DNA from: Myxococcota bacterium
GTDB lineage: Bacteria > Myxococcota_A > UBA9042 > DTJE01
NCBI GenBank assembly: GCA_017994695.1
Contig: JAGOKF010000033.1
Location: 1 to 39,715 of the forward strand
Length of the DNA stretch: 39,715 bases
Direction of reading: 5' to 3'
Below are positions 6,473 through 38,065 of the stretch, piece by piece; the stretch's first letter is position 1, and the number at the start of each line of letters is the position of its first letter. A model generated the notes under the pieces. It was not told the origin of the DNA. It ran no database searches and saw only the letters and a list, made by a program, of their open reading frames with translations. Both the position numbers and the translations under genes were made by a program.

Positions 6473-7516
6473 CTAGCCCTTGTCACGGAGTGGCGGGTTC
6501 GAGGAGGCGGTCCCGGCCCGGGCGGGACGGCGCCGGGACCCCGGCGGCGGAAGGTCCTCGGGTTCGCGCCACAGGCGGACCACCGGTCCCTCCCGCCGGG
6601 CGATCACCCGGCCGGGAAGGTGGGCCTCGGCGACCCCGGATCCCGACCACAGGCGGACCAGGGCCTCGAGGTGGGCCCGGGACAACCCCCGGACTTCTCC
6701 GGTGAGGGCCACCCAGGCCTCGCGCATCCGGTAGGCCCGCAGGGCCTCCGGCAGAGCCGGATCCAGGGGAACGGCCACCTCTCCGGGACGACCCAAGGCG
6801 GCGTCCGAGGACGGTCCGCCGGGCAGGGCGAGGGCCTCCAGGTCCTCGGCCAGTGCCTCCAGGGCGAAGTCGATGCGGGGGTTGAGATCCCGGAGCAGGG
6901 GAAGCACCTCGCCCCGGACGCGGTTGCGCAGGAACCGGCGGTCGGAGTTGGAAGGGTCCTCCCGCCAGGCCAGGCCCCGGGACCGGAGGAAGTCCCGGAC
7001 CTCCTCCCGGGTGGCGCAGAGCAGCGGCCGCACCACCCCCTCCCGGGTGGCCGGGAGGATCCCCGCCAGGCCCAGGGGGCCCGAGCCCCGGAGGAGGCGC
7101 AGGATCACCGTTTCGGCCTGGTCCGTGGCCGTGTGTCCCGTCGTGATGCGGGTCGCTCCCGCCTCCCGGGCCATGTCGTGCAGGGCCTCGTAGCGCTTCT
7201 CCCGGGCAGCCTGCTCGGGGGACTGTCCCCGGGCTTCGCAGCGGATCTTGCGAAGCAGGAAGGGAAGGCCCAGAGACCGGGCCAGGTCCCCCACGAACTC
7301 CGCGTCCTCGGCCGCCGTGGCTCGGAGACCGTGGTCCACGTGCCCGGCCACCAGCTCCACGGCCAGGACCCGCCGGAGGTCCGCCAGCAGGTGCAGCAGC
7401 GCCACGCTGTCGGCGCCCCCGGAAACCGCCGCCAGCACCCGGTCGCCGGTGCGCAGCAGTCCCCGGGTCCGGCAGTACTCCGTCACCCGTTGCGGCAGTT
7501 GACGCTTCCGGGTCAT
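6473..7516 (-). CDS. tilS: tRNA(Ile)-lysidine synthase
   Basis: 347 residues. The PP-loop ATPase signature SGGADS lies at residues 32-37 (AAVSGGADSVALLHLL). It is followed by GHVDHGLR, GHTATDQAETVILRLLRGSG and DPSNSDRRFLRNRVR, all characteristic of TilS. The enzyme ligates lysine to C34 of the AUA-reading tRNA(Ile), using ATP, in the cytoplasm. The length suits the short bacterial forms with a reduced C-terminal domain. The ATG at 7516 overlaps the upstream gene's TGA as ATGA (7513-7516), so the two should be translationally coupled. The frame is open far upstream through that gene, but homology starts near this ATG. Confidence 0.93.
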   Translation of the reverse strand: MTRKRQLPQRVTEYCRTRGLLRTGDRVLAAVSGGADSVALLHLLADLRRVLAVELVAGHVDHGLRATAAEDAEFVGDLARSLGLPFLLRKIRCEARGQSPEQAAREKRYEALHDMAREAGATRITTGHTATDQAETVILRLLRGSGPLGLAGILPATREGVVRPLLCATREEVRDFLRSRGLAWREDPSNSDRRFLRNRVRGEVLPLLRDLNPRIDFALEALAEDLEALALPGGPSSDAALGRPGEVAVPLDPALPEALRAYRMREAWVALTGEVRGLSRAHLEALVRLWSGSGVAEAHLPGRVIARREGPVVRLWREPEDLPPPGSRRRPARAGTASSNPPLRDKG

Positions 7517-8301
7517 CGTGCGGTCCCCTCGGCCGGGGCCCTGGCTGGGGTCTCGGGCCGGGGCAGGCAGGCATCCGCGGGGGCCGCCAGGGAACGGTCG
7601 GTCCGCTGGGGATGGCCCCGGACGACCAGCCCTGCCAGCGCGCCGGCCTGGTCGAAGACCAGCGTTCCGGACGGCAGGCGCCCGGCGACGGCAAAGAGGC
7701 CCGGGAACGGGGAGGCCTCGGCGCCCAGGGAGACCGTCGGGCTCAGCACCGGTTGGTCCGGCAGGCTCGGCAGCACCAGGAAGAGCCCCCGTCCCCGTTC
7801 CCGCGACGACGCCGGGGCTGTTGGGACCCGTGGCCAGGTCCTGCAGGGTCCCTCGCAGGGCAGGCGGGCCACCAGCGCATCGGCGTCCCGATCCTTCACC
7901 GCCGCCGTGGTCTCCCGTCCATCGGGGCCCGTCAGCCGGGCCACGGAAGCCCCCTCCAGGAGCAGCATCGCCGTGCACAGCAGGTCCCCGTCCACCCGGA
8001 ACGCCTGGCCGAACTGCGTCGGGGTCAGCCCCGGCTCCTCCAGGTCCGAGGCCCGGGGCCGGGACTCCAGCAGGATCACCCGGCGCCACAGGAGTTCCCT
8101 CAGGCGGTTCTCGTCCTCCATCGTCAGGGGCATCCAGGGGTCCAGGGAGGTCGCCTCCAGGGGGTGCGCCTCCCGGGGACCCGCCTCCGGGGCGGGGGCC
8201 GGTCCTCCGGCCGGTGGCTCCGGGGAGGGGACCTCGCCCCCTGCCGCCGGTGGCCACCCGGCCAGTCCCAGGCATAGCATCGCCAGGGCCATGCGTTTCA
8301 T
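7513..8301 (-). CDS. Secreted protein resembling a degenerate HtrA/trypsin-fold domain
   Basis: 262 residues with an N-terminal signal peptide (MKRMALAMLCLGLAG, probable cut after PPAAG) and a Pro/Ala-rich stretch to about residue 50. I do not recognise a named family. The middle resembles the start of HtrA-type serine proteases: VDGDLLCTAMLLLEGASVAR, then a PDGRE segment, then RDADALVARL, in the order of 'GDGxxLTNxHVVxGA / DGRxxxAxVxxxDxxxDLAxL'. The catalytic His of that motif is missing. Near the end, GTLVFDQAGALAGLVVRG resembles the strand pair after the catalytic Ser, which is also absent. I infer an inactive trypsin-fold domain, possibly a binding protein in the periplasm. It overlaps tilS by the four bases ATGA. 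Confidence 0.55.
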   Translation of the reverse strand: MKRMALAMLCLGLAGWPPAAGGEVPSPEPPAGGPAPAPEAGPREAHPLEATSLDPWMPLTMEDENRLRELLWRRVILLESRPRASDLEEPGLTPTQFGQAFRVDGDLLCTAMLLLEGASVARLTGPDGRETTAAVKDRDADALVARLPCEGPCRTWPRVPTAPASSRERGRGLFLVLPSLPDQPVLSPTVSLGAEASPFPGLFAVAGRLPSGTLVFDQAGALAGLVVRGHPQRTDRSLAAPADACLPRPETPARAPAEGTAR

Positions 8302-8422
8302 GGGCGACAGCGTAGCCGATCCGGTCCCGAATGGGGACAGTCACCCCGAAGTTCAACCCGATTTTGCGAATTGCCGGAACGCGGCACTGGAAGGATCGGG
8401 AAGAATCGCGGTGACGAAACCT

Positions 8423-9217
8423 TCAGGTCCCTTCCCAGAAGAACTCCTCGTAGGGGTCCTGGAGCACCTGCTGGACCGTGTCGTATTCCCCCGACAGGCG
8501 GGCCGCCGCCGCCTCGTCCACCACGACGAAGACGTGGGGGTGCATCTGGAGCACGCTGGCGGGGCACTGGGCGGTGACCGGCCCTTCGACCATCTGCTCC
8601 ACCGCCCGGGCCTTCGAGGACCCCGTGGCGATCAGCAGGATCATCCGGGCCTCCAGGATGGTCCCGATCCCCATCGTGATCACGTAGCGGGGCACGCTGT
8701 CCGGGTCCCCGAAGTCCGGCGTGTTGGCCAGGATGGTGTCCTGGCTCAGGCGCTTCACCCGGGTCCGGGAGGCCAGGCTCGACCCCGGCTCGTTGAAGGC
8801 GATGTGCCCGTTGCGACCGATCCCCAGCAACTGCAGGTCGATGCCCCCGGCCCGGCGGATGTCCTCCTCGTAGCGGGAGCAGGACTCCAGGATCGGCTCG
8901 TGGTTGCCGTCGGGGATGTGGACCCGTTCGGGCGGGATGTCCACGCCCTCCACGAAGTTCCACCGCATGTAGGAGTGATAGGAGGCCGGGTGATCCAGGT
9001 TCAGGTTCACGTATTCGTCGAGGTTGAACGACGTGCACCCGGCGAAGGAGACCTCTCCCTTCCGGTGGCGGTCCACCAGGTCCCGGTAGAAGCCCAGCAT
9101 GGTCCGTCCCGTCGCCAGGCCCAGCACCAGGCGGGGATTCGCGGAAACCTGGCGCACGACGAAATGGGCTCCAAAACGGCAGGCCTCCGTCTCGTCTCTG
9201 GCCCGGATGACCTTCAT
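8423..9217 (-). CDS. nagB: Glucosamine-6-phosphate deaminase
   Basis: 264 residues, the normal length. Family signatures are LGLATGRTMLGFY, NLDEYVNL (Asp67 aligns with the catalytic base of the E. coli enzyme) and GIGRNGHIAFNEPGSSLASR (His138 and Glu143). Asn136 sits where the E. coli enzyme has Asp141; to my knowledge this is common among other bacterial NagB proteins. The enzyme converts glucosamine-6-phosphate to fructose-6-phosphate plus ammonia, joining amino-sugar salvage to glycolysis. The ATG at 9217 has a strong GGAGGGA ribosome binding site. It lies downstream of secF with a 52-base gap, so it may be read through from the sec operon. No other amino-sugar gene is nearby. Confidence 0.93.
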   Translation of the reverse strand: MKVIRARDETEACRFGAHFVVRQVSANPRLVLGLATGRTMLGFYRDLVDRHRKGEVSFAGCTSFNLDEYVNLNLDHPASYHSYMRWNFVEGVDIPPERVHIPDGNHEPILESCSRYEEDIRRAGGIDLQLLGIGRNGHIAFNEPGSSLASRTRVKRLSQDTILANTPDFGDPDSVPRYVITMGIGTILEARMILLIATGSSKARAVEQMVEGPVTAQCPASVLQMHPHVFVVVDEAAAARLSGEYDTVQQVLQDPYEEFFWEGT

Positions 9218-9269
9218 GGCGCTCCCTCCTGCCTTCTCTGGGTGAAAGGGGATGCGGCCGTCTTCCGGG

Positions 9270-10577
9270 TCAGGCCCGGGCCGCCGCCCTGCGCCGGACG
9301 ACCCGGTCCAGCCACAGCGTCAGGGGCGCCGCCACGTAGATCGAGGAATAGGTCCCGAGGACGATGCCCAGGGCCAGCAGGATGGCGAAGTCCCGGATGG
9401 TGCCGCCGCCCAGGATCGCGATGCTGAGCACGACGATTTCGGTGGTCCCCGAGGTGATCAGCGTCCGGGACAGCACCTCGTTGATGGACTGGTTGATCAC
9501 GTCCCGCAGGTTGCCGACCCGGCCCTTCTTCAGGTTCTCGCGGATCCGGTCGTACACGATGATCGTGTCGTTGACGTCGTATCCGATGATGGTCAGCAGG
9601 GCGGCCACCACCGGCAGCGTGAACTTGATCTTGAACAGCACCATGAAGCCGAACACCACCGCGACGTCATGGACCAGGCAGAGGATGGCCCCGGGGGCGA
9701 ACTTCATGTCGAACCGCAACGCCACGTAGATCAGGATCCCGATGATGGCGTAGACCAGGGCCAGCATCGCCGTCTGGAACAGTTCCTTTCCGACGGAGGG
9801 GCTCACGCTGGCGGTCGAGAGGACCTCGACGAACCTGTCCCCGAACTGCTGCCGGAGGGCGTCCTCGACCTGGAGCTTGATGGCCTCGACCTCGATGGTG
9901 AACCGGTTGTCCCGGACCGCCGCGATGCGCCGCTGGGCCTCGGCCTCGACCCGGGCCGCCTCGGCCTTCACGTCGTCGTCCTTGGCCGACAGCAGCAGGT
10001 CCTTCTCCCGGAGCATGTCCGCCCGGATGCGCTCCTCCTTGTCGGACCGGACGCTGATGTGGGGGAATCCCGCCTGGGCGAAGACCCGCCGGATCTCCTC
10101 GCCGGCGGCGTCGAGGGGCCACTCGTCGGGCAGCGACAGGTAGAACTTGTCGCCTGCCTGCTGGGGGCTCTCGGCGACGGCTCCCCGGCCGAAGTGCCGC
10201 TCCATCGCCCGGGCGATCTCCAGTTTCGTCAGGGGGGTCAGCAGGCTCGGAAGTTCCGTGAAGACCTGGAACTTCACGGTGTCCGCCTCTCCGCTGGCGC
10301 CGACGTCGAAGTCCTGGACCTCGACCTGGGTCCCCTTCTGGCGGGTCTGCTTCTCCACCAGGGCGTTCACGGTGGTCTTGATCGTCTCCCGATCGACCCC
10401 CTGTCCCGCCTTGAAGGCCACGATGATCTTGGACCCGCCCTTGAAGTCGATGCCGCTGTCGAACCCGAAGATCAGGGCCGCCAGGATCGAGATCACGGTG
10501 AGGGACATCGAAAAGGGCACCCAGAACCTGGCGGCGCCCATGAAATCGAACCTGGTGCCGGGCTTGATGAACTCCAT
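9270..10577 (-). CDS. secF: Protein translocase subunit SecF, long periplasmic domain
   Basis: 435 residues, about 100 more than E. coli SecF. The N-terminal transmembrane helix is followed by the family element FDSGIDFKGGSKI. Five further transmembrane helices follow, with YDVNDTIIVYDRIRENLKK and SRTLITSGTTEIVVL. The extra length lies in the first periplasmic domain (about 40-260), where residues about 185-245 are charged, Glu/Lys/Arg-rich and heptad-like. SecF pairs with SecD to use the proton gradient to pull exported proteins through SecYEG. It starts 12 bases after secD. The shape of the insertion and any role for it are inference. Confidence 0.95.
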   Translation of the reverse strand: MEFIKPGTRFDFMGAARFWVPFSMSLTVISILAALIFGFDSGIDFKGGSKIIVAFKAGQGVDRETIKTTVNALVEKQTRQKGTQVEVQDFDVGASGEADTVKFQVFTELPSLLTPLTKLEIARAMERHFGRGAVAESPQQAGDKFYLSLPDEWPLDAAGEEIRRVFAQAGFPHISVRSDKEERIRADMLREKDLLLSAKDDDVKAEAARVEAEAQRRIAAVRDNRFTIEVEAIKLQVEDALRQQFGDRFVEVLSTASVSPSVGKELFQTAMLALVYAIIGILIYVALRFDMKFAPGAILCLVHDVAVVFGFMVLFKIKFTLPVVAALLTIIGYDVNDTIIVYDRIRENLKKGRVGNLRDVINQSINEVLSRTLITSGTTEIVVLSIAILGGGTIRDFAILLALGIVLGTYSSIYVAAPLTLWLDRVVRRRAAARA

Positions 10578-10589
10578 CGAGGCCTCCCG

Positions 10590-12446
10590 TCAGATGCCGA
10601 CGCTCAACCGCTCGGGGCGGAACTTGTCCAGGTACCAGTTGAACAGCACGCGCGTGAAGTAGAACTGCGTGAAGAAGGTGACGGCGATGCCGATCAGCAG
10701 CGTCACCGCGAAGCCGTAGACGGGGCCGCTGGAGTAGTTCATCAGCACGACGCCCGCGATGGCGGTCGTCAGGTTCGAGTCGAAGATGGCCGTGAAGGCC
10801 CGGGAGTAGCCTGCCTCGACGGCGGACCGGGGGCCCTTGCCCGACCGGATCTCCTCGCGGATGCGCTCGGTGATCAGCACGTTGGCGTCCACCGCCATGC
10901 CGACGGTCAGCACGATGCCCGCCAGTCCCGGCATCGTCAGCGCCGCGTTGAACCCCACCAGGATCGCCAGCGTGAAGAGCACGTTCAGGAACAGCCCGAT
11001 GTCCGCGATCAACCCCGAGCCGCGGTAGTAGAACAGCATGAACAGGAAGACCAGGGACACCGCCACGACGAGGGAGACCACGCCGGCCCGGATGGTGTCC
11101 CGTCCCAGGCTCGGGCCGACCTCGAAGTCGTGGACCTTGTGGACGGGGGCCTTGTAGGCCCCGTGGGTCAGCACCGTCACCAGCGCCTGGGCCTCCTTCA
11201 GCACCTCCCGGGGATGGCGGGCGCCGCCCAGGGTGATCTTGGCCCGGCCGCCGCCGATCCGCTCCCGGATCACCGGGGCGCTGTTGACCTCGTCGTCGAG
11301 CATGATGGCCATGTACTCGCCGGTGTTCTTCTCGGTGACCTCCTCGAAGAGGCGGGCGCCCACCGAATCGAACTCCAGGCTGACGTAGGGCTCGCCCTGG
11401 GTCTCGAAGAGGACCATCGCCCGGGTCAGGTGGTCGCCGGTCACGTCGGCCCGGGACCAGAGGTAGTGGGTCCGGTAGAAGCGCTCCTTCAGCAGGTTGT
11501 CCTCCCGGACCTCGACCAGTTCGTAGCCCACCATGTGGTCGTCGTCGATCGTCAGGGACTTGATGAAGGAATAGAGGGCGTTCTTGGCCAGGGCGTCGCC
11601 GGTGCCCCGGGCGATCCCGGCGTCGGCCCGGACATACCACTGGCCCGTGGAGGCGTCCCGGTCCATCTTCAGCAGGGCGCCCTTCTCGGGATAGCGATCC
11701 CGGAAGGCCTGGAGCGCCGCTTCCTGGCCCTTGAAGAAGTTCTGGGCCGCGGGGCTCCGGTCGACGATCCGGAAGGCCAGGCGGGCGGTCTGCCCGATGC
11801 GCTCCCGGACCTGGTCCACCTGGGCGCCCCGGACACCGGGCATCTGGATGTCGATGTCGGTGTCCCCGTTCTTGCGGACGTCGGGCTCCACCAGGCCGAA
11901 GGCCTCGATGCGCTTCCGGATGACCTCCAGCGTCTGGTCCACGATCTCGTCCCGGACCGCCGCCACCCGCCGTTCGTCCAGCCGGAGGGCGACCTTGTTG
12001 CCCGACGGGATCTGGCGCCGGAGGTCCCCCCGGAGATCCTCCACCAGTTCGGGGGTCACCACCTCGACGTCCGCCTCGTCTCGGAAGGTCAGCAGCAGGG
12101 TGTCGAAGTCGGTCCGCTCGCAGGTGAAGCGGTCCCGGAGGGCCTTGCGGTCCTCCTCGGAAAGCCCCTCGGGGTCCTTCCCGTCCTTCCGGGCGAGGGC
12201 CTCGACGACCTGTTCGGTCACCGCCTCCCGGGTGCGGAGCAGGTTGTCGGCGATGGCCCGCTGGTAGTCCACCGTGTAGCGCAGTTCCAGTCCGCCCTGG
12301 AGGTCCAGGCCGAAGGCGAGGCGCTTCTGGAAGGGGTACCAGGACGGGGTCTTCCCCTCGGGCAGCAGCGTCGGCAGCACGTAGAGGAACGACAGCAGGA
12401 TCAGCGCCAGCAGTGCAATGGGTTTCCAGAGGTTCTTGCGGTTCAT
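10590..12446 (-). CDS. secD: Protein translocase subunit SecD
   Basis: 618 residues, like E. coli SecD. One N-terminal membrane helix (IALLALILLSFLYVLPTLL) is followed by the conserved FGLDLQGGLELRYTVD. A large periplasmic region (about 45-430) follows, including RIEAFGLVEPDVRKNG and VRGAQVDQVRERIGQTA. Five C-terminal membrane helices carry TVGMAVDANVLITERIREE, the membrane motif with the Asp needed for proton-driven function. It works with SecF and YajC in protein export across the inner membrane. The yajC-secD-secF order is the usual bacterial operon. A 40-base gap separates it from yajC, and ATG 12446 is preceded by GGGAGA. Confidence 0.96.
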   Translation of the reverse strand: MNRKNLWKPIALLALILLSFLYVLPTLLPEGKTPSWYPFQKRLAFGLDLQGGLELRYTVDYQRAIADNLLRTREAVTEQVVEALARKDGKDPEGLSEEDRKALRDRFTCERTDFDTLLLTFRDEADVEVVTPELVEDLRGDLRRQIPSGNKVALRLDERRVAAVRDEIVDQTLEVIRKRIEAFGLVEPDVRKNGDTDIDIQMPGVRGAQVDQVRERIGQTARLAFRIVDRSPAAQNFFKGQEAALQAFRDRYPEKGALLKMDRDASTGQWYVRADAGIARGTGDALAKNALYSFIKSLTIDDDHMVGYELVEVREDNLLKERFYRTHYLWSRADVTGDHLTRAMVLFETQGEPYVSLEFDSVGARLFEEVTEKNTGEYMAIMLDDEVNSAPVIRERIGGGRAKITLGGARHPREVLKEAQALVTVLTHGAYKAPVHKVHDFEVGPSLGRDTIRAGVVSLVVAVSLVFLFMLFYYRGSGLIADIGLFLNVLFTLAILVGFNAALTMPGLAGIVLTVGMAVDANVLITERIREEIRSGKGPRSAVEAGYSRAFTAIFDSNLTTAIAGVVLMNYSSGPVYGFAVTLLIGIAVTFFTQFYFTRVLFNWYLDKFRPERLSVGI

Positions 12447-13056: not shown

Positions 13057-13470
13057 GTGACGCGGATGGGCAGGATCCTGGGCGTGGGAACCGACGTGGT
13101 GACGATCCCGGACTTCGAGCGGCGAATGGAACGGTCCCCGGGCCTGGAGCAGAGCGTCTTCGCCCCCGAGGAGTCCGCCTACTGCCGGTCGATGGCCCGT
13201 CCCGCCCAGCACTTCGCCGCCCGGTTCGCCGCCAAGGAGGCCGTGCTGAAGGCCCTGGGCACCGGGTGGGCCGAAGGGGTGGATTTCCGGGACGTGGTGG
13301 TGGTCCGGGACGCCAGGGGCGCCCCCTCGGTGCGGCTGGAGGGGGGGGCGGCGGCCCGCCTGGAGGGACGGAGTGCGAGGGTGCACCTGAGCCTGTCCCA
13401 CGCCGGCGAGACGGCGATGGCGGTGGCGGTGCTGGAAGCAGGGGAGGATCGCGATGGCGGAGATTCCTGA
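13057..13470 (+). CDS. acpS: Holo-[acyl-carrier-protein] synthase
   Basis: 137 residues from the GTG at 13057; an in-frame ATG at 13066 is the alternative. Signatures are ILGVGTDVVTIPDFERRM (Asp13 binds Mg) and HFAARFAAKEAVLKALGTG (Glu61). A VHLSLSHAGETAMAVAVLE end matches AcpS. The enzyme moves 4'-phosphopantetheine from CoA to the serine of acyl carrier proteins, and its own operon encodes one such carrier. No Shine-Dalgarno precedes either start. A possible -10 (TAGACT, 13036-13041) lies only 7 bases before a tiny Met-Arg-Arg-stop frame whose TGA overlaps the GTG. The last 17 bases overlap the ACP gene. Confidence 0.93.
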   Translation: MTRMGRILGVGTDVVTIPDFERRMERSPGLEQSVFAPEESAYCRSMARPAQHFAARFAAKEAVLKALGTGWAEGVDFRDVVVVRDARGAPSVRLEGGAAARLEGRSARVHLSLSHAGETAMAVAVLEAGEDRDGGDS

Positions 13471-13723
13471 GGACCTGGCCGGGGAGGTCAAGAAGGTGAT
13501 CGTGGAGTGCCTGAACCTGGAGGTCCGTCCCGAGGACATCGAGGACGGAGCGCCCCTGTTCGGGGAGGGCCTGGGACTCGATAGCATCGATGCGCTGGAA
13601 ATCGCCCTGGGGCTCGAGAAGCGCTTCGGGATCAAGGTGCAGCCGGACAAGGAGACGAAGAAGTACTTCTTCTCGGTGGCGACGCTGGTGGACCTGATCC
13701 GGGAGCGTCTTCAGGGTGCCTGA
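13454..13723 (+). CDS. Acyl carrier protein 1
   Basis: 89 residues, acidic and helical. The phosphopantetheine attachment motif LGLDSIDALE places the modified serine at Ser44. The C-terminus (KKYFFSVATLVDLIRERL) is the usual last helix. It resembles the ACPs of accessory fatty-acid or polyene-type clusters rather than the housekeeping AcpP, which is normally beside fabF and fabG. It overlaps acpS by 17 bases and the downstream acyltransferase by 8, so the three genes are tightly coupled. It would carry acyl chains as thioesters in the cytoplasm, perhaps for the fused acyltransferase next to it. Confidence 0.92.
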   Translation: MAEIPEDLAGEVKKVIVECLNLEVRPEDIEDGAPLFGEGLGLDSIDALEIALGLEKRFGIKVQPDKETKKYFFSVATLVDLIRERLQGA

Positions 13724-15161
13724 TTCCTCTGCCGGGGAAGGGGCGAAGGTGCGGGGTCCCGGGGCCCGGAGGGGTGCCTGGGCCTTTGCCCTCTTCTGGG
13801 TTTCCTGGCCGCTGTGGATCTGGCTGGCCCTGACCCGCTTGGGACCCCGGGCCGCCTCGGGGCTGGTCCTGGGGTGCCTGGCCCTGCTGCTCTGGAGGGG
13901 ACGGCGCCGGGGCCTGGGCATGCTGGCGGTCCAGGCCGGGGGCGGCGCGGTGCTGTCCCTGGCCACGCTGGTCACGGGGCACCCGGCCTTCCTCTACCAG
14001 GCCCCGGTGCTGGTCAGCGCCTTCCTGCTGGGCACCTTCCTGTGGACGATCCGGCGACCCCCGCCGATGATCGAGCGCTATGCCCTCCTGGTGAAGCCGG
14101 ACCTGTCCCCCGGGGAGAAGGCCCACTGCCGGGCCTTCACCTGGATCTGGATCGCCTTCTTCCTGGCCAACATGGCCGTCACCGAGTGGCTGGCCCTCCG
14201 GGGAGACCCGGCGGCGTGGGCCCTGTGGTCCGGCGCCCTGGCCTACGGCGCGATGGGCCTGATCTTCGCCGCCGAGTGGGTGATCCGGCAGGTCCGCTTC
14301 GGGGACCGGCGCCGCTGGCGGACCGCGTTTCACACCGTCGCGTTCTACGCCCCCTGGGCCCTGGTCAGCGGGGGCTTCACGCTGCTGGCCTACCTGCCCC
14401 TCCGGCTGCTGTCCCCGGTCTTCCCGTCCCTGCGGAAGCGCTTCCGGCGGTTCGCCCAGGGCTTCTACCGGTTCCAGATGACCTTCCTGACCTGGACCGG
14501 GACCATCCGGATTGCCTCCATCGAGGGGGAGGAGGACCTGGCCCGGGCCGATCCCCGGGTGATCGTGGCGAACCACCGGACGCTGCTGGACGTCCTGATC
14601 CTGATGTCCCGGGTCCCCGAGGCCACCTGCCTGCTGAAGCCCCTCCGCCGTTCCGGGGCGGACCCCGGCCGCCACGCGATGCCGGATTTCTGGAAGCCGT
14701 TCATCCTGGGGCCCTTCTCGCTGCTGGGCTACATCCCGATGCCCGAGGACTGGCGGGACCCCTGGGGATTGCGCAGGGTGCTGGACCTCTGCCGGGCGCA
14801 ACTGGCCGAGGGGCGGCCGCTGATCATCTTTCCCGAGGGGACCCGGTCCCCCGACGGACGCCTGCTGCCGTTCCAGGACCTGCCATTCCGGGTGGCCCGG
14901 GAGGCCCGGGTGCCGCTGCAGCCCGTGGCCATCCACACCGACGTCCGGTTCATGCCCCAGGGGACCGTGGGCATCGACGCCGATCGTCGGTGCACGTTCC
15001 GCATCCGGGTGCTTCCCTGCATCGATCCCCGGGACGACCTCCGGGCCCGGGACCTGTTGGTGGAAACCCGCCAGCACCTGGTCCGGGAACTCCGGCGCAT
15101 GGAGGAGGCCTTCGGTCCCCTCTGGAGGGAGGGATCGGATCCCGGCCGGGAGGGTCCCTAG
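13716..15161 (+). CDS. Membrane protein fused to a PlsC-type acyltransferase
   Basis: 481 residues starting at a GTG that overlaps the ACP gene. Residues about 20-245 contain several hydrophobic helices and resemble predicted membrane proteins (COG4648 type) found beside ACPs in accessory lipid clusters. Residues about 260-470 are an acyltransferase of the 1-acyl-glycerol-3-phosphate acyltransferase family. The His-x4-Asp catalytic motif is NHRTLLD (His287, Asp292) and the second family motif is FPEGTRS (372-378). I infer that it transfers an acyl group from the neighbouring carrier protein to a lipid or other membrane acceptor. Such pieces are often separate genes, and the fusion supports a shared task. 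Its TAG overlaps the convergent fabD stop within four bases (15158-15161). Confidence 0.82.
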   Translation: MPDSSAGEGAKVRGPGARRGAWAFALFWVSWPLWIWLALTRLGPRAASGLVLGCLALLLWRGRRRGLGMLAVQAGGGAVLSLATLVTGHPAFLYQAPVLVSAFLLGTFLWTIRRPPPMIERYALLVKPDLSPGEKAHCRAFTWIWIAFFLANMAVTEWLALRGDPAAWALWSGALAYGAMGLIFAAEWVIRQVRFGDRRRWRTAFHTVAFYAPWALVSGGFTLLAYLPLRLLSPVFPSLRKRFRRFAQGFYRFQMTFLTWTGTIRIASIEGEEDLARADPRVIVANHRTLLDVLILMSRVPEATCLLKPLRRSGADPGRHAMPDFWKPFILGPFSLLGYIPMPEDWRDPWGLRRVLDLCRAQLAEGRPLIIFPEGTRSPDGRLLPFQDLPFRVAREARVPLQPVAIHTDVRFMPQGTVGIDADRRCTFRIRVLPCIDPRDDLRARDLLVETRQHLVRELRRMEEAFGPLWREGSDPGREGP

Positions 15162-16102
15162 TCCGACCAGGCGGCGGCCAGGCGTTCCAGGGAGGCCAGG
15201 TCGCCGACGCAGTGGGCCTCGTAGGCCGAGGCATCGGGCCAGATGCGCCGCAGGGTTCCCCGGAGCACCCGCCCGGGTCCCACCTCGACGAAGCGCGTCA
15301 CGCCCTCCCGGCGGAGTCCTTCGACGATCTCGACCCACCGGACCGGCCGCTGGAGCTGGGCCACCAGGGCCTCGCGGACCGCCAGGGGGTCCTCCTCCGG
15401 GAGGCCGGTGGCGTTGAGGTAGAGGCGTCGTGCCGGCGGGTGCAGGGCGATTCGCTCCAGGGCCTCCCGGAAGGGCGCCTCGGCGGGTGCCATCAGGCGG
15501 CTGTGCCAGGCCCCCGAGACGGCCAGGGGCACGCACCGGGCCTCCCGGGACTCGAAGTGCCGGGCGGCCCGATCCATCGCCTCGACAGTCCCCGACAGCA
15601 CCGCCTGGTCCGGGGCGTTCAGGTTCGCGACGCCTCCCTCGGCCGGGTCCAGGAGTGCCTCGGTCTCACGGAGGACCTGGTCCAGGGGAAGGCCCACCAC
15701 GGCGATCATGGTTCCCGGGTGCGCCGAGGCGGCGTCGTCCATCGCCGCGCCCCGGGCGGCGGACAGCCGGATCGCATCGTCCGCGGAGAGACATCCGGCG
15801 CACCGCAGGGCCGCGATCTCCCCCAGGGAGTGGCCGGCGGTGACCTGGGGCTCCAGGTTCCGGGATTCCAGCCAGGCCAGGCATGCCAGGCTGACGGTGG
15901 TGATGGCCGGCTGGAGGACCCGGGTCCGGGAGAGGGCCTCGAAGGGCCCCCGGGAGCAGAGGGCCAGCAGGTCGGTGCCCGTGCAGTCGGAGGCCGCCTC
16001 GAAGAGGCGCCGGGCCTCGGGATCGGACCGGGCCAGGTCGGCGCCCATGCCCACGACCTGGGATCCCTGGCCCGGGAACAGGAAGGCCGTCCTCGCCGCC
16101 AT
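15158..16102 (-). CDS. fabD: Malonyl-CoA:ACP transacylase
   Basis: 314 residues from the ATG at 16102. The FPGQGSQVVGMG start is typical. The active-site motif GHSLGE has Ser92, and the second catalytic residue is His200 in SGAWHSRLM; both positions match E. coli FabD. It loads malonyl groups onto ACP for chain extension. It follows fabG by 17 bases in the reverse-strand set cstA, ACP 2, GcvT-like, fabG, fabD. No beta-ketoacyl synthase accompanies it in the window, so either the housekeeping synthase is elsewhere or this is an accessory pathway. Confidence 0.94.
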   Translation of the reverse strand: MAARTAFLFPGQGSQVVGMGADLARSDPEARRLFEAASDCTGTDLLALCSRGPFEALSRTRVLQPAITTVSLACLAWLESRNLEPQVTAGHSLGEIAALRCAGCLSADDAIRLSAARGAAMDDAASAHPGTMIAVVGLPLDQVLRETEALLDPAEGGVANLNAPDQAVLSGTVEAMDRAARHFESREARCVPLAVSGAWHSRLMAPAEAPFREALERIALHPPARRLYLNATGLPEEDPLAVREALVAQLQRPVRWVEIVEGLRREGVTRFVEVGPGRVLRGTLRRIWPDASAYEAHCVGDLASLERLAAAWSD

Positions 16103-16119
16103 GCTCCGATCCTCCGGTT

Positions 16120-16866
16120 TCAGACCAGCAGGGAAGAGAGTCCCCCGTCCACCACGAGCGCCTGGCCCGTGATGTAGGACGCCTCGTCGGACAGCAGGAA
16201 CAGCGCCGCGTGGGCGACTTCCCGGGCCAGGCCGAACCGGCGCATCGGAATGCGATCCTGGAAGGCCCGGCGGCTCGGGGAGGGCATCACCGCGGTCATC
16301 TCGGTGTCGATGAACCCCGGGACCAGGGCGTTGACCCGAATCCCCTTGCCCACCGTCTCGGCGGCCAGGGACCGGGTCAGGGCCAGGATCGCCCCCTTCG
16401 ATGCCCCGTAGGCCGCCTGCCCCGGCAGCCCGAAGGACCCGGACACCGACCCGACGTTCAGGATCGCCCCGCGGCGGGCCTGGAGCATGGGCCGCAGGAC
16501 GGCCCGGCACCAGTGGATCGTCCCCGCCAGGTTGGTCCGGATCACCCGGTCCAGGTCCTCCCCGGGGGTCATCGCCAGCAGTCCCGAGTGGGTGACCCCG
16601 GCGTTGTTCACCAGGGCGTCGATGCGTCCTTCCCGCTCCAGGACCGACTCGAGCGCCCGCTGGACCGCCTCGGGGTCCCGGCCGTCGCAGGCCAGGGCCT
16701 CGACTCCCGGAAGGCGGGCCTTCACGGCCTCGGCGGCCTCGGAATGCCGCAGGAAGGTGAAGGAGACCCGGGCGCCCTCCTCGACCAGGCGCTCCACGAT
16801 GGCCCGGCCGATGCCCCGGCTGCCGCCGGTCACGACGACGACCTGGCCCTGCATCCGGTCCGCCAC
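16120..16866 (-). CDS. fabG: 3-oxoacyl-ACP reductase (short-chain dehydrogenase)
   Basis: 248 residues. The GTG at 16866 is preferred because AGGGGG lies 5 bases before it; the ATG at 16854 is the alternative. It has the Rossmann motif TGGSRGIGRA, the NNAG element, catalytic Ser140 (NVGSVSG) and Tyr153/Lys157 (YGASK). The ending YITGQALVVDGG is usual for FabG. It reduces 3-oxoacyl-ACP with NADPH. It begins 9 bases after the GcvT-like gene and ends 17 bases before fabD. Short-chain dehydrogenases are diverse; the FabG call rests on the fabD and ACP neighbours as well as sequence. Confidence 0.88.
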   Translation of the reverse strand: MADRMQGQVVVVTGGSRGIGRAIVERLVEEGARVSFTFLRHSEAAEAVKARLPGVEALACDGRDPEAVQRALESVLEREGRIDALVNNAGVTHSGLLAMTPGEDLDRVIRTNLAGTIHWCRAVLRPMLQARRGAILNVGSVSGSFGLPGQAAYGASKGAILALTRSLAAETVGKGIRVNALVPGFIDTEMTAVMPSPSRRAFQDRIPMRRFGLAREVAHAALFLLSDEASYITGQALVVDGGLSSLLV

Positions 16867-16875
16867 GGGATCCCC

Positions 16876-17970
16876 CTAGAGTTCGTCCAGCCGGATCTTC
16901 AGGCTTTCGGGCAGGAACGGGGGCATGGTCAGGGTCTGCCCCGGGAGCGACCGGTCCCCGTCGCGGACCTCGACCGGCAATCCGGCCCAGGCGAACGGGC
17001 GGCGGACCTGGGCCAGGCCCAGGTCCCGATCCAGCACGGGCGATCGTCCCGCAGCCACGACGGTCCCGACGGGTTCGCCGTCGAGAAGCACGGTCTGTCC
17101 CACGGCCAGGCCTCGGGTTTCCCGGTCCAATGCGACGCCGACGACCTTCGTGGACCCCCCGGCCTCCCGGCGGCGGATCACGGCCTGTCGTCCCGTGAAG
17201 CGGTCCTTCTGGAAATCGAACATCCACTGGAGCCCCAGGACCAGGGGATCCCGGACCCGGATCCCCTCCTGGTGCACGTTGAAGAACCGGCCGTCCAATT
17301 TCAGCAGGTCCAGGGCGGCGGTGCCGTAGAGGGTCCATGCGGGGTCTTTCGCGGCCCCGCGCAGGGCCTCCACCGTCCCGGCGGCCGCCTCCTGGGGGAC
17401 CAGGATCCAGTATCCGAACTCGGCGGTCTTCCCCGCCCGGATCACTCGGACGTCCGTGCCGGCCAGGGAGCGGGGCTCGATGGCGAGGTAGGGCATCCCC
17501 AGCACGTCGGGGCCCAGAAGTTCCCGGAGGGGGGCCCAGGCCCGGGGACCGTCCAGGGACAGCACGGCCCACCCGGACCCCTCGTCCCGCAGGGGCACCC
17601 CGGCCAGCAGGCGGTCGATCGTCGCCGGGTCCGCGGCGCACTCCAGCAGCACCCACAGGTCCTCGTCGTCGATGGCGACGTAGGCGTCCGCCGCCACAAG
17701 GCCGTCGTCGTCCAGCAGCAGCGTGTGGAGGACGCGCCCGAAGCGGAGCCGGGACACGGGGCCCGTCAGGACCTCGTCCAGGGGGTAGAGGGCGTCGTCC
17801 ACCGGTCCCCGGAGCACCCGGACATGGGTCATCGGGCACAGGCCCAGGGCCTTCCGGACGGCCAGGACCTCCCGCTCCGGGTCCCCGAATCCCGCGACGG
17901 CCGGCATCCCCGACCGGTCCTCGAACCGGGCTCCGGACCCCTCGAGCACCCGCCTCCAGGTCGCGGTCAT
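16876..17970 (-). CDS. GcvT-like aminomethyltransferase-family protein coupled to an ACP
   Basis: 364 residues, full length for the glycine-cleavage T-protein family. It has a tetrahydrofolate-binding-type region with LLDDDGLVAADAYVAI, in the place of the family's conserved catalytic Asp segment. It also has an AGKTAEFGYWILVP segment (family 'TGExGxEI') and a C-terminal LKLDGRFFNVHQEGIRVRDP with FTGRQAVI. GcvT proteins move one-carbon units between folate and a carrier. No gcvH, gcvP or lipoate gene is here. The start ATG overlaps the stop of ACP 2 as ATGA, and fabG and fabD follow directly. I infer a folate-dependent or degenerate one-carbon step on a carrier-bound substrate, not glycine cleavage. 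This is a hypothesis from context. Confidence 0.75.
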   Translation of the reverse strand: MTATWRRVLEGSGARFEDRSGMPAVAGFGDPEREVLAVRKALGLCPMTHVRVLRGPVDDALYPLDEVLTGPVSRLRFGRVLHTLLLDDDGLVAADAYVAIDDEDLWVLLECAADPATIDRLLAGVPLRDEGSGWAVLSLDGPRAWAPLRELLGPDVLGMPYLAIEPRSLAGTDVRVIRAGKTAEFGYWILVPQEAAAGTVEALRGAAKDPAWTLYGTAALDLLKLDGRFFNVHQEGIRVRDPLVLGLQWMFDFQKDRFTGRQAVIRRREAGGSTKVVGVALDRETRGLAVGQTVLLDGEPVGTVVAAGRSPVLDRDLGLAQVRRPFAWAGLPVEVRDGDRSLPGQTLTMPPFLPESLKIRLDEL

Positions 17971-18272
17971 GGCAGGCCTCCCGCGGCCTCGGGGTGGCCG
18001 GTCTCCCGGAGCACGTGGTCCGCCAGGGTGTTGATGGATCGCAACAGGGCCACGCTGCCCTCGGCGATCTTCACCCCGAACTCCTGCTCGACCGCCAGCA
18101 CCACCTCCAGGGCGTCGAGGCTGTCCAGGCCCAGGCCGGATCCCAGCAGCGACACGTCCTCGTGGAGGTCCTCCTCGGTATAGGGCAGGGACAGGCGGGC
18201 GATGAGGTTCCTCTTGATGCGGCCGATGACTTCCTGCCGCCAGGCGATCCGCCGTTCGATCTCGGGGGTCAT
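17967..18272 (-). CDS. Acyl carrier protein 2
   Basis: 101 residues from the ATG at 18272 (MTPEIERRIAWRQEVIGR). The motif GLGLDSLDALEVVLAVEQEFG places the phosphopantetheine serine at Ser51. The N-terminal 20 residues are a basic extension beyond a typical 80-residue ACP. It differs clearly from ACP 1 of the neighbouring forward operon, so the locus encodes two carriers. Its TGA overlaps the GcvT-like start (ATGA at 17967-17970), implying tight stoichiometry. It lies 60 bases after the cstA stop. The frame extends upstream to 18320, but those residues do not fit the family. Confidence 0.9.
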   Translation of the reverse strand: MTPEIERRIAWRQEVIGRIKRNLIARLSLPYTEEDLHEDVSLLGSGLGLDSLDALEVVLAVEQEFGVKIAEGSVALLRSINTLADHVLRETGHPEAAGGLP

Positions 18273-33477: not shown

Positions 33478-36458
33478 GCCTGCAACTGGAGCATTTCGGC
33501 GAGTTCTTCCGGGCCGTGCATGACCTTCCGCCCTTTCCCTGGCAAACCCGCCTGCTGCGGCAGGTGATGGACCAGGGCTGGCCCGAGGCCCTGGCTCTTC
33601 CGACCGCAGCGGGAAAGACGGCCGTGCTGGACGTGGCGGTCTTTGCCCTGGCCTTGCAGGCCGCGAGGCCTCCGGCCGAGCGGACGGCCTGCCGGCGCAT
33701 CGCCCTGGTGGTGGACCGGCGGATCGTGGTGGACGAGGCCTCGGAGAGGGCCCGCCGGATCGCGGAGTCCCTGGACAGTCCGAGCCTTCCCGTCCTGCAA
33801 CAGATGGCCGAGGCCCTGCGGTCCCTGGGAGGCGACCGACCCCTTGTCCATGCAACCCTGCGGGGCGGCATCTACCTGGAGGAGATGTGGGCCCGAAGCC
33901 CCGTGCAACCCGTGATCCTGTGCTCGACCGTGGACCAGGTGGGCTCCCGCCTGCTGCACCGCGGCTACGGGCTTTCGTCCCGAGCGAGGCCCCTGCACGC
34001 CGGGCTGCTGGCCAACGACACCCTGATCGTGCTCGACGAGGCCCATTGCAGCGAGCCGTTCCGCCAGACCCTCCGCTGGATCGAGCGGTTCCGGCAGGTG
34101 GCCGAGCGGCCCCTCCGGACGCCTTTCTCGGTCGTGACGATGACTGCCACCCCGGTTCCGGGGCAGACCGTCTTTTCCCCGGACGACGAGGATTGGCGCG
34201 ACCCCGTGTTACGAGAGCGATGGAGTGCCAGGAAGCCTGCGGTGCTCCAGGTCGCCCCGGGCGACAAGGAAGACAAGTTCGTCGATGCGTGCCGCCAGGC
34301 GGTGGAGGAGGTCCTTGCCGTTTCCGGGCAGACGGATGCGGGGCCGCTCTTCGGCAACCCGGTCCGGTCGGTGCTGGTCGTCGTGAACCGCGTGGCCACC
34401 GCGAGGGAACTTGCGAAGAGCCTGCGGGATCAGGCCACCGCTGCGGCGAAGAAAAAGAAGGGCCGGCGGGCCGAAACGCGGGACTCCGATGGCAAGGCCC
34501 GCTGGGACGTCCTGCTGCTGACGGGGCGCACCCGGGCCCTGGAACGGGACCGGCTGGTGCGTCAGTGGAGGGATCGCATCATCGCCGGGCGGCCGGTTCG
34601 GGATCCGCCCGGGGCGCCCCCGCTGGTGGTGGTGGCCACCCAGTGCGTCGAGGTCGGGGCCGATCTGGACCTGGATGCCCTGGTCACCGAGGCCTGTCCC
34701 CTCGATGCCCTCCGGCAGCGGCTCGGGCGGATCGACCGCCTGGGCCGGCGCGGCGAGTCCCCGGTCCGGATCGTCTGCCGAAAGGAACTGGCCTCGGGGG
34801 ACAAGGCGGACCCGGTGTACGGGGAGTCCCTGAAACGGGCCTGGGACCTGCTGCAGTCCCTCGCCCAGGACGGCACTCTGGACCTCGGCACCCAGGCATT
34901 GCGGGACCGTCTGGACAAGGCAGGGGACCTCGGGCCGGTTCTTTCGCCCAAGGGGGAGGCCCCGTTGCTCTTTCCGGCCTTCCTGGATCTCTGGGTGCAG
35001 ACGGGGCCCGAGCCCGAGGTCTCGCCGGACCCGGCGCTCTTCCTCCACGGAACCGAGGGCGCCGTCCCGGACGTGCAGGTGATCTGGCGGTCGGACCTGC
35101 CGGAGGATCGGCCGGATTCCTGGGCCGACATCGTGGGCCTGTGCCCGCCGTCCACCCTCGAGGCGATGCCGGTGCCCCTCCATCTTGTCCGGGCATGGCT
35201 GGCGGGCGATCCCAAGGTCGAGGACCGGGGGGGCGATATCCCGGAGGTCCTAAAGGAAGAACGGGACGCGAAAGAGCAAGGAAAGTTCAGGAAAGCGCTT
35301 CGATGGTTCGGACCCGACGAATCCACCCTGGCCGCCGATCCCCTGGATATCCGGCCGGGGGACGTCCTGGTGGTCCCGGCCTCCTACGGAGGGTGCGATC
35401 AAGAAGGATGGGACACCGCCGTCACGCAACAGGTCCGGGATTTGGCCGAGGAGGCCATCCTCGCGGGGTGCAGGCCGGCCGTGCTCCGAGTGACCCCCGC
35501 CCTCTGGAGCGGAGGAGGCCGGGAGGTCCTGGAGGAGATCTGGAAACCCCTGGGAACCCTCGACGCCTCGTCGGAGGACGGCTGGCCCGAGGACCTGCGG
35601 CAGCAGGTTCGGGAGGCCCTGGATCGTTCCGTGGAGGCCTTGCAGGGACTTCCGGAAGCCGATCGCCCGCAAGGTCTGTTCGGGGTTCTGGATCACCTTC
35701 GGGGCCTGTCGTCCTTGGACATGCTGCCTCACCCGTCCGGCCGGGGCATCCTGGTGCGCGCCCGCAGGCGGGTCCATCAGGTCGCCGCCGGCGAGGACGA
35801 TTCGTCGGTGTTGTCCGAGGGTCCGGTTTCCCTGGCGGCGCACATGGAACAGGTCGGTAGGCTCGCGGCGGACTATGCGGAGTCCGCCGGGTTGGAGGAA
35901 GGGCTCCGGACCGACGTCATGCTGGCTGGGCGGCTCCACGACGTGGGCAAGGCGGATCGGCGCTTCCAGGCCTGGATGCAAGGGGGTGACATCATCCGGG
36001 CCGCCCGGGCGGGCCTGGTGGCCAAATCGGATCGCCTGGTCCCGGGGACTCCCCAGTCCGAAGCCGCACGGGAACTGGCGGGGTATCCAAAGGGCTACCG
36101 CCACGAGGTGCTCTCGACGCGGATGATCCACGATTCGCCGGAGATCCTCCGCCTTGCATCGGATCCCGACCTGCTCCTCCACCTGGTCGTGGCCCACCAT
36201 GGTCACGCTCGTCCCTTCGTTCCCGAGGTCCACGATCCCCGGCCTCTGAAGGTGCGTTACGAATGGAACGGCGTTCCCCTGGAGGCGGGCAGCGACACGG
36301 ATTGGCATCGAATCGACAGCGGGGTCGCCGAGCGTTTCTGTCGGCTGATCCGGCGCTATGGCTGGTGGGGACTTTCCTATCTGGAGTCACTGGTGAAACT
36401 GGCCGACTACCGGGCCAGCGAGCGTCCAGAGACGTCGCAACAGCGCATGGAGGCATGA
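33474..36458 (+). CDS. cas3: Cas3 helicase-nuclease, type I-G form with C-terminal HD domain
   Basis: 994 residues. The superfamily 2 helicase comes first: Q-motif region PFPWQTRLLRQ, Walker A PTAAGKT (43-49), DEAH (188-191), TAT (224-226) and the motif VI region RLGRIDRLGRRG. The HD nuclease domain is at the C-terminus, with LHDVGKAD (His822-Asp823) and AHHGH (His908-His909). Most type I Cas3 proteins have HD first; helicase-then-HD is the GSU0051/I-G arrangement. It degrades target DNA after Cascade recognition. All key residues seen are intact. The start ATG overlaps the csb2 stop, and the next gene begins three bases after its stop. Confidence 0.93.
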   Translation: MSLQLEHFGEFFRAVHDLPPFPWQTRLLRQVMDQGWPEALALPTAAGKTAVLDVAVFALALQAARPPAERTACRRIALVVDRRIVVDEASERARRIAESLDSPSLPVLQQMAEALRSLGGDRPLVHATLRGGIYLEEMWARSPVQPVILCSTVDQVGSRLLHRGYGLSSRARPLHAGLLANDTLIVLDEAHCSEPFRQTLRWIERFRQVAERPLRTPFSVVTMTATPVPGQTVFSPDDEDWRDPVLRERWSARKPAVLQVAPGDKEDKFVDACRQAVEEVLAVSGQTDAGPLFGNPVRSVLVVVNRVATARELAKSLRDQATAAAKKKKGRRAETRDSDGKARWDVLLLTGRTRALERDRLVRQWRDRIIAGRPVRDPPGAPPLVVVATQCVEVGADLDLDALVTEACPLDALRQRLGRIDRLGRRGESPVRIVCRKELASGDKADPVYGESLKRAWDLLQSLAQDGTLDLGTQALRDRLDKAGDLGPVLSPKGEAPLLFPAFLDLWVQTGPEPEVSPDPALFLHGTEGAVPDVQVIWRSDLPEDRPDSWADIVGLCPPSTLEAMPVPLHLVRAWLAGDPKVEDRGGDIPEVLKEERDAKEQGKFRKALRWFGPDESTLAADPLDIRPGDVLVVPASYGGCDQEGWDTAVTQQVRDLAEEAILAGCRPAVLRVTPALWSGGGREVLEEIWKPLGTLDASSEDGWPEDLRQQVREALDRSVEALQGLPEADRPQGLFGVLDHLRGLSSLDMLPHPSGRGILVRARRRVHQVAAGEDDSSVLSEGPVSLAAHMEQVGRLAADYAESAGLEEGLRTDVMLAGRLHDVGKADRRFQAWMQGGDIIRAARAGLVAKSDRLVPGTPQSEAARELAGYPKGYRHEVLSTRMIHDSPEILRLASDPDLLLHLVVAHHGHARPFVPEVHDPRPLKVRYEWNGVPLEAGSDTDWHRIDSGVAERFCRLIRRYGWWGLSYLESLVKLADYRASERPETSQQRMEA

Positions 36459-36461
36459 GTC

Positions 36462-37478
36462 ATGGCACGCTTCCGGTTGACGGGACTGGACGGCCGGAAC
36501 CCGCTGCACTTCCTGGCGGCCCTGGGCCTGTTGCGCCTGGGGGATCGCATTCGTCCCGGCATGAGGCTCGGCTGGTCCTTTGAGGGGGCGGTCCGGAACC
36601 CTGTCCTGGAGCCCGTTGCGGACTTCGCGGACCTGGAGCGACTCGCCGAGTCGATGGCGGCCTGGTTGCGGGAACTCGGATCAACGAACCCATCTCCACC
36701 CACGAAGGCGGTTAATCTGCCTTTTGGCCAGGGAATTGCTCATCTGGGCGACATTATCAAAGCGCCCGTTGGGATTTTTCGTAATCTCGGTGAAAATGCG
36801 TTGCGTGATTGGTTTGATAGTGTTTCTGCCGGAAAGTTTCCAATTTGCCCGGTCCAGGATGATCCCTGGCTCGTTTTACAGCAACTCACTGCTCTTGCTT
36901 CGGAGGTTTGGCTGAAAAATGGTTACCTAAAAGAAACCCCATTAAGTTTCGGTAATGGAGGTGGAAAACAGTTTCTTTTGAAGCATTTTCGTATGCTTGC
37001 TGGAAATGTGAATCGGAGAAATCTGATCGCGTCTCTCATGGGAGGTCAGACGCGTTTCGTGATAGGCGGGACAGCCTTAAATTGGGACCCATCAGACCGA
37101 CGATCGCATGCTCTTCAAGCAAGAGATCCCGAATCTACGAAAAAGATTGTGGATGTTTCGGCAAATGTGCTGGCATACATTGGTCTTTCATTTGTGAAAG
37201 TAGTGCCTTGTAGGCCTGGTTTTTCAAGAATTTTGGGATATATATCGAATCAAAAGTTGAGTAAAGGCGATTCTTTGAAGGATGGTTCAGTGGGGAGCTT
37301 CTATTACCCGCTGTGGGAACGAACGATTCCTGTTGACCTGGTATCGGTGCTGTTCTCCCAGTTGGACAGGCTGACGACATCTGTTCCGCAGAATGGAATT
37401 AGGGAGATTTGGGGTTCTAGAATTGTTTCCTGTGATAAACGTAAATACTTCTCTAGGCCGAGACTGATAGTTTCCTAA
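36462..37478 (+). CDS. Type I-G effector subunit, Csb3/Cas8-like or 'Cas3-extension' family
   Basis: 338 residues. The start FRLTGLDGRNPLHFLAALGLLRL resembles the N-termini of I-G large-subunit candidates (Csb3/GSU0052, Csx17) and of the small proteins called Cas3-extension found right after cas3. I cannot tell these apart by eye. Csx17 is much longer, so this is not a full Csx17. The likely role is target or PAM recognition in Cascade. Base composition breaks inside the gene: 36481-36540 is 45 G+C of 60, while 36781-36840 is 26 and 37201-37260 is 21. The frame stays open throughout, so it may be a chimera or a partly transferred gene. It ends 40 bases before the first CRISPR repeat. Confidence 0.6.
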   Translation: MARFRLTGLDGRNPLHFLAALGLLRLGDRIRPGMRLGWSFEGAVRNPVLEPVADFADLERLAESMAAWLRELGSTNPSPPTKAVNLPFGQGIAHLGDIIKAPVGIFRNLGENALRDWFDSVSAGKFPICPVQDDPWLVLQQLTALASEVWLKNGYLKETPLSFGNGGGKQFLLKHFRMLAGNVNRRNLIASLMGGQTRFVIGGTALNWDPSDRRSHALQARDPESTKKIVDVSANVLAYIGLSFVKVVPCRPGFSRILGYISNQKLSKGDSLKDGSVGSFYYPLWERTIPVDLVSVLFSQLDRLTTSVPQNGIREIWGSRIVSCDKRKYFSRPRLIVS

Positions 37479-38065
37479 ACAGGGACAACAGACCAACCAT
37501 CGCACGCTTTTCTATGAAACTTCAATGTGGCCGCGCTTTCGAAAGCGCGGAAATGGCTCCGTCGGGGTGGATCGTCCAGCCGGGGGTCCTGCTTCAATGT
37601 GGCCGCGCTTTCGAAAGCGCGGAAATCAGTGGCATGGCGGCCAGTGGCATGCCGGCCAGTGGGCTTCAATGTGGCCGCGCTTTCGAAAGCGCGGAAATGA
37701 GCCATACTGGGACGGAAGCCTTTCACGTATTGCATCGCTTCAATGTGGCCGCGCTTTCGAAAGCGCGGAAATCAGGAGCCCGCGAATAAGACTGATTTCC
37801 TACTCCGAGATGGGCTTCAATGTGGCCGCGCTTTCGAAAGCGCGGAAATCGGGACCGCGAGCATCCGCATCGCGTCGCGTCGCTGGCTTCAATGTGGCCG
37901 CGCTTTCGAAAGCGCGGAAATTCCATCATCCTCTCCAGCCCGGGCTACGATGGCGCGGCTTCAATGTGGCCGCGCTTTCGAAAGCGCGGAAATGGGGCAA
38001 CGGTCGACCGATCGGGCGTACTCCATGGCGCTTCAATGTGGCCGCGCTTTCGAAAGCGCGGAAAT

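Follow-up and report, generated by a model that had tools for sequence, protein, structure and literature searches.

A GcvT-fold protein coupled to an acyl carrier protein among aryl-polyene-like genes of a Myxococcota bacterium

What does a protein of the glycine-cleavage T-protein fold do when its gene is coupled to that of an acyl carrier protein (ACP)? The question is raised by a lipid-type gene block within a 39,715-nucleotide contig of a Myxococcota bacterium (assembly GCA_017994695.1; the whole contig is hereafter the window). The initial annotation suggested an undescribed step there, either one-carbon transfer or hydrolysis on a carrier-bound acyl or aminoacyl chain. The idea of such a step is a fair one: the protein differs from ordinary GcvT, and its link with an ACP, a reductase and a malonyltransferase is retained well outside this genome. 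Folate-dependent one-carbon transfer, in turn, became doubtful. We regard the GcvT-like protein, found mostly beside polyene-lipid (pigment-like) genes, as a probable, so far undescribed enzyme that works on carrier-held chains. This is made likely by the missing pterin residue, the pairing with an ACP in at least seven phyla and the polyene gene surroundings.

Organization of the block

Seven genes occupy positions 13057-18272, and the expected motifs are present in all of them (Table 1). The two ACPs, the convergence of a plus-strand run (acpS, ACP1, acyltransferase) on a minus-strand run (ACP2, GcvT-like, FabG, FabD) and the ATGA overlap of the ACP2 and GcvT-like genes, all described earlier, are confirmed. 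Comparison with the sister genome (G001) indicates purifying selection on all seven genes, with dN/dS of 0.02-0.38. The AcpS start as called is GTG; an alternative ATG at 13066, where the sister-genome alignment begins, is possible. ACP1 has an intact DSI motif and, in the ACP tree, falls among the ApeE proteins. FabD scores 257.7 bits against the fabD profile, whose cut-off is 260.9. The ApeG-ApeD fusion is split into two separate genes in two relatives (G005 and G011). A palindromic CTAG at 15158-15161 is the common stop of the convergent acyltransferase and FabD genes. The G+C fraction of the window is about 0.70 and falls to 0.57 at 36001-38000.

Table 1. Features of the ACP and GcvT-like gene block, in window positions
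Feature	Position	Strand	Evidence
AcpS-type holo-ACP synthase	13057..13470	+	Pfam ACPS 2.4e-19; NCBIfam acpS above cut-off
ACP1, ApeE-type carrier	13454..13723	+	PP-binding; 50% identity to E. coli CFT073 ApeE
ApeG-like membrane domain fused to ApeD-like lysophospholipid acyltransferase	13716..15161	+	NHxxxxD, FPEG
FabD-type malonyltransferase	15158..16102	-	GHSLG; Acyl_transf_1 1.3e-35
FabG-type ketoreductase	16120..16866	-	YxxxK, TGxxxGIG; adh_short_C2 1e-64
GcvT-like, GcvT-fold ACP-coupled protein	16876..17970	-	GCV_T 1e-28, GCV_T_C 3e-08 (Pfam)
ACP2, GcvT-coupled carrier, first gene of operon	17967..18272	-	PP-binding 2e-09; DSL at residues 50-52
ATGA overlap of ACP2 stop and GcvT-like start, 4 bp	17967..17970	-	sequence

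The GcvT-like protein and its carrier

Both the folate-binding GCV_T domain and the C-terminal barrel are recognized in the GcvT-like protein by Pfam. Its AlphaFold2 model (pLDDT 94.9, pTM 0.92) has T-proteins as the best structural matches, with a TM-score of 0.86 to T. maritima 1woo/1wos; the fold is, as modeled, that of T-protein. However, the protein reaches 77.7 bits against TIGR00528, the curated GcvT equivalog, far below the cut-off of 235.85. Its gene has neither gcvH nor gcvP beside it, and its partner is an ACP. The earlier statement that no glycine cleavage gene is present holds for the block and fails for the genome: on contig C76 a canonical gcvT adjoins gcvP and gcvH, the latter called by reading the sequence, with DSQKA at the lipoylation site. 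This glycine cleavage system, absent from the initial annotation, raises the concern voiced there that the protein is an ordinary GcvT whose partners lie elsewhere. That is answered by the presence of a gcvT of their own beside gcvH and gcvP and by the maximum-likelihood tree, where 31 core proteins including that of the window fall into a single clade (100/98) and 19 canonical GcvT into another (100/100). An ORF overlapping a weak third GcvT match, on contig C138, was supposed to be YgfZ and was rejected, as it encodes a TerC membrane protein. Plasmid relatives found by tblastn are, among the matches listed, mostly sarcosine-oxidase-type in appearance.

A neighbourhood survey had been named beforehand as a test. 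Contigs were scanned with patterns taken from the GcvT-like protein only, with no ACP in the query, and the scan gave 38 loci from Myxococcota, Verrucomicrobiota, Kiritimatiellota, Lentisphaerota, Fibrobacterota, Omnitrophota and, more distantly, Pseudomonadota. Removal of one truncated locus and addition of the window and of genome G026 left 39 usable loci. Because simple ORF calls are not dependable at 70% GC, conservation across loci guided the choice of genes. In 39/39 loci of the seven phyla the GcvT-like gene has an ACP gene immediately upstream, so that the gene order is not unique to this genome. The junction is an exact 4-bp overlap in 26 of the 39 loci (24 of 31 in the core clade) and nearly all others are within a few bases; start codons were set by rule, and single junction values may be off. 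Judged from its recurrence across seven phyla, the ATGA overlap is more than chance. The 31 ACP2 proteins of the core make up a separate clade (support 0.78), distinct from the ApeE and ApeF carriers, and this clade parallels that of the core GcvT-like proteins.

Where a locus extends far enough, FabG and FabD in most cases follow the GcvT-like gene, often with an intervening 4HBT thioesterase. Of the 39 relatives' loci searched, several of which are short contigs, 29 show ketosynthase matches and 31 a FabG/ApeQ-type reductase. FabD, TE, FabA/Z, acyltransferase, HtrB, GT2 and MMPL genes also recur near the module, and sister genera have a ketosynthase, a chain length factor and a second reductase divergent from it.

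We take T. maritima D96, E195 and R227 to be folate-binding or catalytic residues of T-protein. In the protein of the window D96 is kept as D95, E195 is replaced by W188 and R227 by L220. The D96 equivalent is Asp in 29 and Glu in 2 of the 31 core members. At the E195 position all 19 true GcvT have Glu; none of the 31 core members does (mostly Leu, Trp, Gln or Met), nor does any of the 6 Pseudomonadota members, where it is His and where the catalytic Asp is Ile. The R227 equivalent is His or Leu in the core. Tyr83, Tyr100 and Tyr188, invariant in the 19 canonical GcvT, have mostly given way to His, Ala and Lys in the core, in which many charged positions (H82, D95, E110, D140 and K181) are near-invariant. 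The published SesA residues D95, E189 and Y221 offer a parallel to this site, and the THF-binding Glu of SesA is kept in all BrdA proteins (PMC5547118). The pterin Glu, missing from the GcvT-like protein, is present in dimethylglycine dehydrogenase and TMAO demethylase. Of these, dimethylglycine dehydrogenase has no Arg227 equivalent; hence the loss of Glu is a stronger sign than that of Arg227, which alone would be compatible with folate use.

The predicted structure has the T-protein fold, and by residue comparison the catalytic Asp is in place and the pterin Glu and Arg227 are not. As the Glu is lost and the Asp kept, ordinary folate one-carbon transfer is doubtful. Ordinary pterin recognition is, on these residues, unlikely, and an altered mode of folate binding is possible. 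With Ile in place of the Asp in the Pseudomonadota, a single chemistry common to the whole family is uncertain.

Pathway context and a possible role in chain initiation

We used the apeA-R aryl polyene cluster of E. coli CFT073 as the reference for gene functions (PMC8253772). Within the window, positions 13454-15161 match ApeE (50%), ApeG (33%, at 13791-14291) and ApeD (26%, at 14433-14966). Contig C129 of the same genome (G000) has matches to ApeO (39%), ApeC (31%), ApeP (30%) and ApeQ (50%), so that the ketosynthase, chain length factor, DH and KR of the aryl polyene pathway are all matched there. Contig C27 has matches to ApeI (35%), ApeJ (32%), ApeK (38%) and ApeM (24%), together with a LolA-like gene, more ketosynthases and a B12-type radical SAM protein. 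The export and attachment set (ApeJ, ApeK, ApeL, ApeM) is thereby found on C27, where the LolA-like ORF was judged by gene order and sequence, without a database match. I-J-K, the LolA-like gene and the MMPL exporter stand there in the same order as in CFT073. In contrast to CFT073, the window genome adds ACP2, the GcvT-like protein, its own FabG and FabD and the B12-type radical SAM protein, no ApeH was found in it, and its Ape-like genes are spread over three contigs instead of a single cluster, with relative placement not given by the assembly. An ApeF-type ACP was looked for beside the ApeE-type ACP1 and none was found. Judged by these matches, the surroundings of the block are an aryl-polyene-like type II polyketide system, which the initial annotation had not mentioned. 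In the survey of the window's family, the ACP2, GcvT-like and ApeG-ApeD genes co-occur in 6 of 13 genomes and in 0 of the remaining 7; these profile counts are not independent, because the six module-bearing genomes belong to one family.

In the same genome, locus L097 (contig C20, 112000-130000) has ketosynthases, a radical SAM protein, a possible methyltransferase and one more ACP (41% to ACP2) at about 7200-11840. The locus, in which no GcvT-like gene was seen, is perhaps another polyketide-type cluster.

The predicted role of ApeH in E. coli is the loading of the aromatic starter (PMC8253772). A search for ApeH gave no match in the window genome and found it in 0 of the 6 module-bearing genomes of the window's class. 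It was found in 10 of 10 class-mates with apeG but without the module, and therefore the search could have seen it; the empty result of the E. coli ApeH query in the window genome was accepted only with these positive controls. These absences are provisional, because most of the genomes are metagenome bins and that of the window is 96.7% complete in 158 contigs. Outside the class, about eight module-bearing genomes gave, with a more sensitive profile, strong matches to an ApeH-like ligase over its full or nearly full length. In Archangium, which has the module, the ligase is part of a standard apeD-E-F-G-H-I-J run; several Myxococcota with the module have it next to ApeE and ApeQ. These ligases may belong to second clusters. 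The strict rule that the module replaces ApeH, which holds in the window's class and fails in other lineages, was therefore rejected. As the exclusion fails beyond the class, we treat the starter-unit idea as a lead and not as a result; it is mainly the absence of ApeH that points to initiation.

Proposed step and alternatives

Hence, we lean, by a little over an even chance, towards ACP2, the GcvT-like protein, FabG and FabD being an additional module within a type II polyketide (fatty-acid-like) pathway of aryl-polyene-like character, in which the GcvT-like protein acts on an ACP2-bound intermediate, probably in initiation and without ordinary folate binding. FabD would load malonyl onto ACP2, the ketosynthase-chain length factor pair would condense and FabG would reduce. 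The GcvT-like protein, translated together with ACP2 from one coupled message, would receive the phosphopantetheine arm of ACP2 in the channel that the lipoyl arm of H-protein uses in true T-protein. An acid-base step might then proceed on the tethered intermediate, most likely with a starter unit being made or converted. The sequence supports this reading through the ACP2 coupling, the aryl-polyene-like gene set, the predicted T-protein fold, the loss of the pterin Glu and the retention of the catalytic Asp; we infer from these that ACP2 is the substrate carrier, that the step belongs to initiation and that folate is not used.

The GcvT-like protein could instead use tetrahydrofolate to transfer or remove a methyl, methylene or formyl group on the ACP2-bound chain, a chemistry that T-protein, DmdA and LigM perform with other substrates. 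Such chemistry would agree with the close structural match to T-protein, with the Asp kept in nearly all core members, with the use of folate by nearly all characterised relatives and with the true T-protein substrate being likewise held on a carrier arm. However, the pterin Glu is lost throughout and Arg227 with it, the three Tyr positions have changed and the Asp itself is Ile in Pseudomonadota, and we consider this explanation unlikely, though worth keeping in view. The constant ACP pairing beside a drifting pocket, and the Pseudomonadota that lose the Asp yet keep the ACP, would also fit a non-catalytic chaperone or docking protein of the GcvT fold, which holds ACP2 or delivers it to the ketosynthase-chain length factor complex. 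The near-invariant His, Asp, Glu and Lys positions of the core suggest catalysis, however, and make such a role rather improbable. An ordinary GcvT or demethylase standing beside fatty-acid genes by chance would account for the Pfam matches to GCV_T and GCV_T_C, but the canonical system on C76, the score far under the GcvT cut-off, the separate clade and the ACP pairing across seven phyla leave it a very small chance.

The GcvT-like protein shares with T-protein the fold, the domain order, the catalytic Asp and, probably, an arm-bearing carrier partner. The two differ in that the carrier of T-protein is the lipoyl H-protein and that of the GcvT-like protein an ACP, with the pterin Glu and Arg227 replaced. 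DmdA, LigM/DesA, SesA/BrdA, TMAO demethylase, dimethylglycine dehydrogenase and YgfZ/IBA57 have the fold in common with it, and we know of none of them that pairs with an ACP. A search of the open-licence literature gave no report of a GcvT-like protein from polyketide or aryl polyene clusters. More broadly, and with slightly less than an even chance of being right, these proteins may constitute a widespread, undescribed class of enzymes of the GcvT fold, in which the lipoyl H-protein was swapped for an ACP, ordinary folate recognition was lost and a new step on ACP-bound chains arose in aryl-polyene-like pathways, perhaps providing an ApeH-independent starter. If so, the fold has shifted from a lipoyl to a phosphopantetheine arm, which is testable with two small soluble proteins. 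The conservation of the ACP-GcvT pair in seven phyla points to an enzymatic step not yet assigned and offers a marker for a polyene subtype.

Last, some further genes stand near such pairs. In locus L077 (1518-5273) and related loci (Fibrobacterota, Verrucomicrobiota, Omnitrophota) a B12-binding radical SAM domain, a ketosynthase and a likely chain length factor are fused in one protein of 1250 residues, just upstream of the ACP-GcvT pair. The distant ACP-GcvT clusters L078-L083 (Gammaproteobacteria, Phaeobacter, Pelagimonas, Pseudovibrio), whose GcvT-like protein is without the catalytic Asp, also carry a candidate FeeM-like N-acyl amino acid synthase, several ketosynthases and, judged by sequence, ABC transporter genes. 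A flavodoxin-like FMN reductase adjoins FabA/Z and acyltransferase genes in nine loci, e.g., L071, L073 and L077; it is encoded on the minus strand and has about 240-360 residues, the longer forms being joined to an SCP2-like domain.
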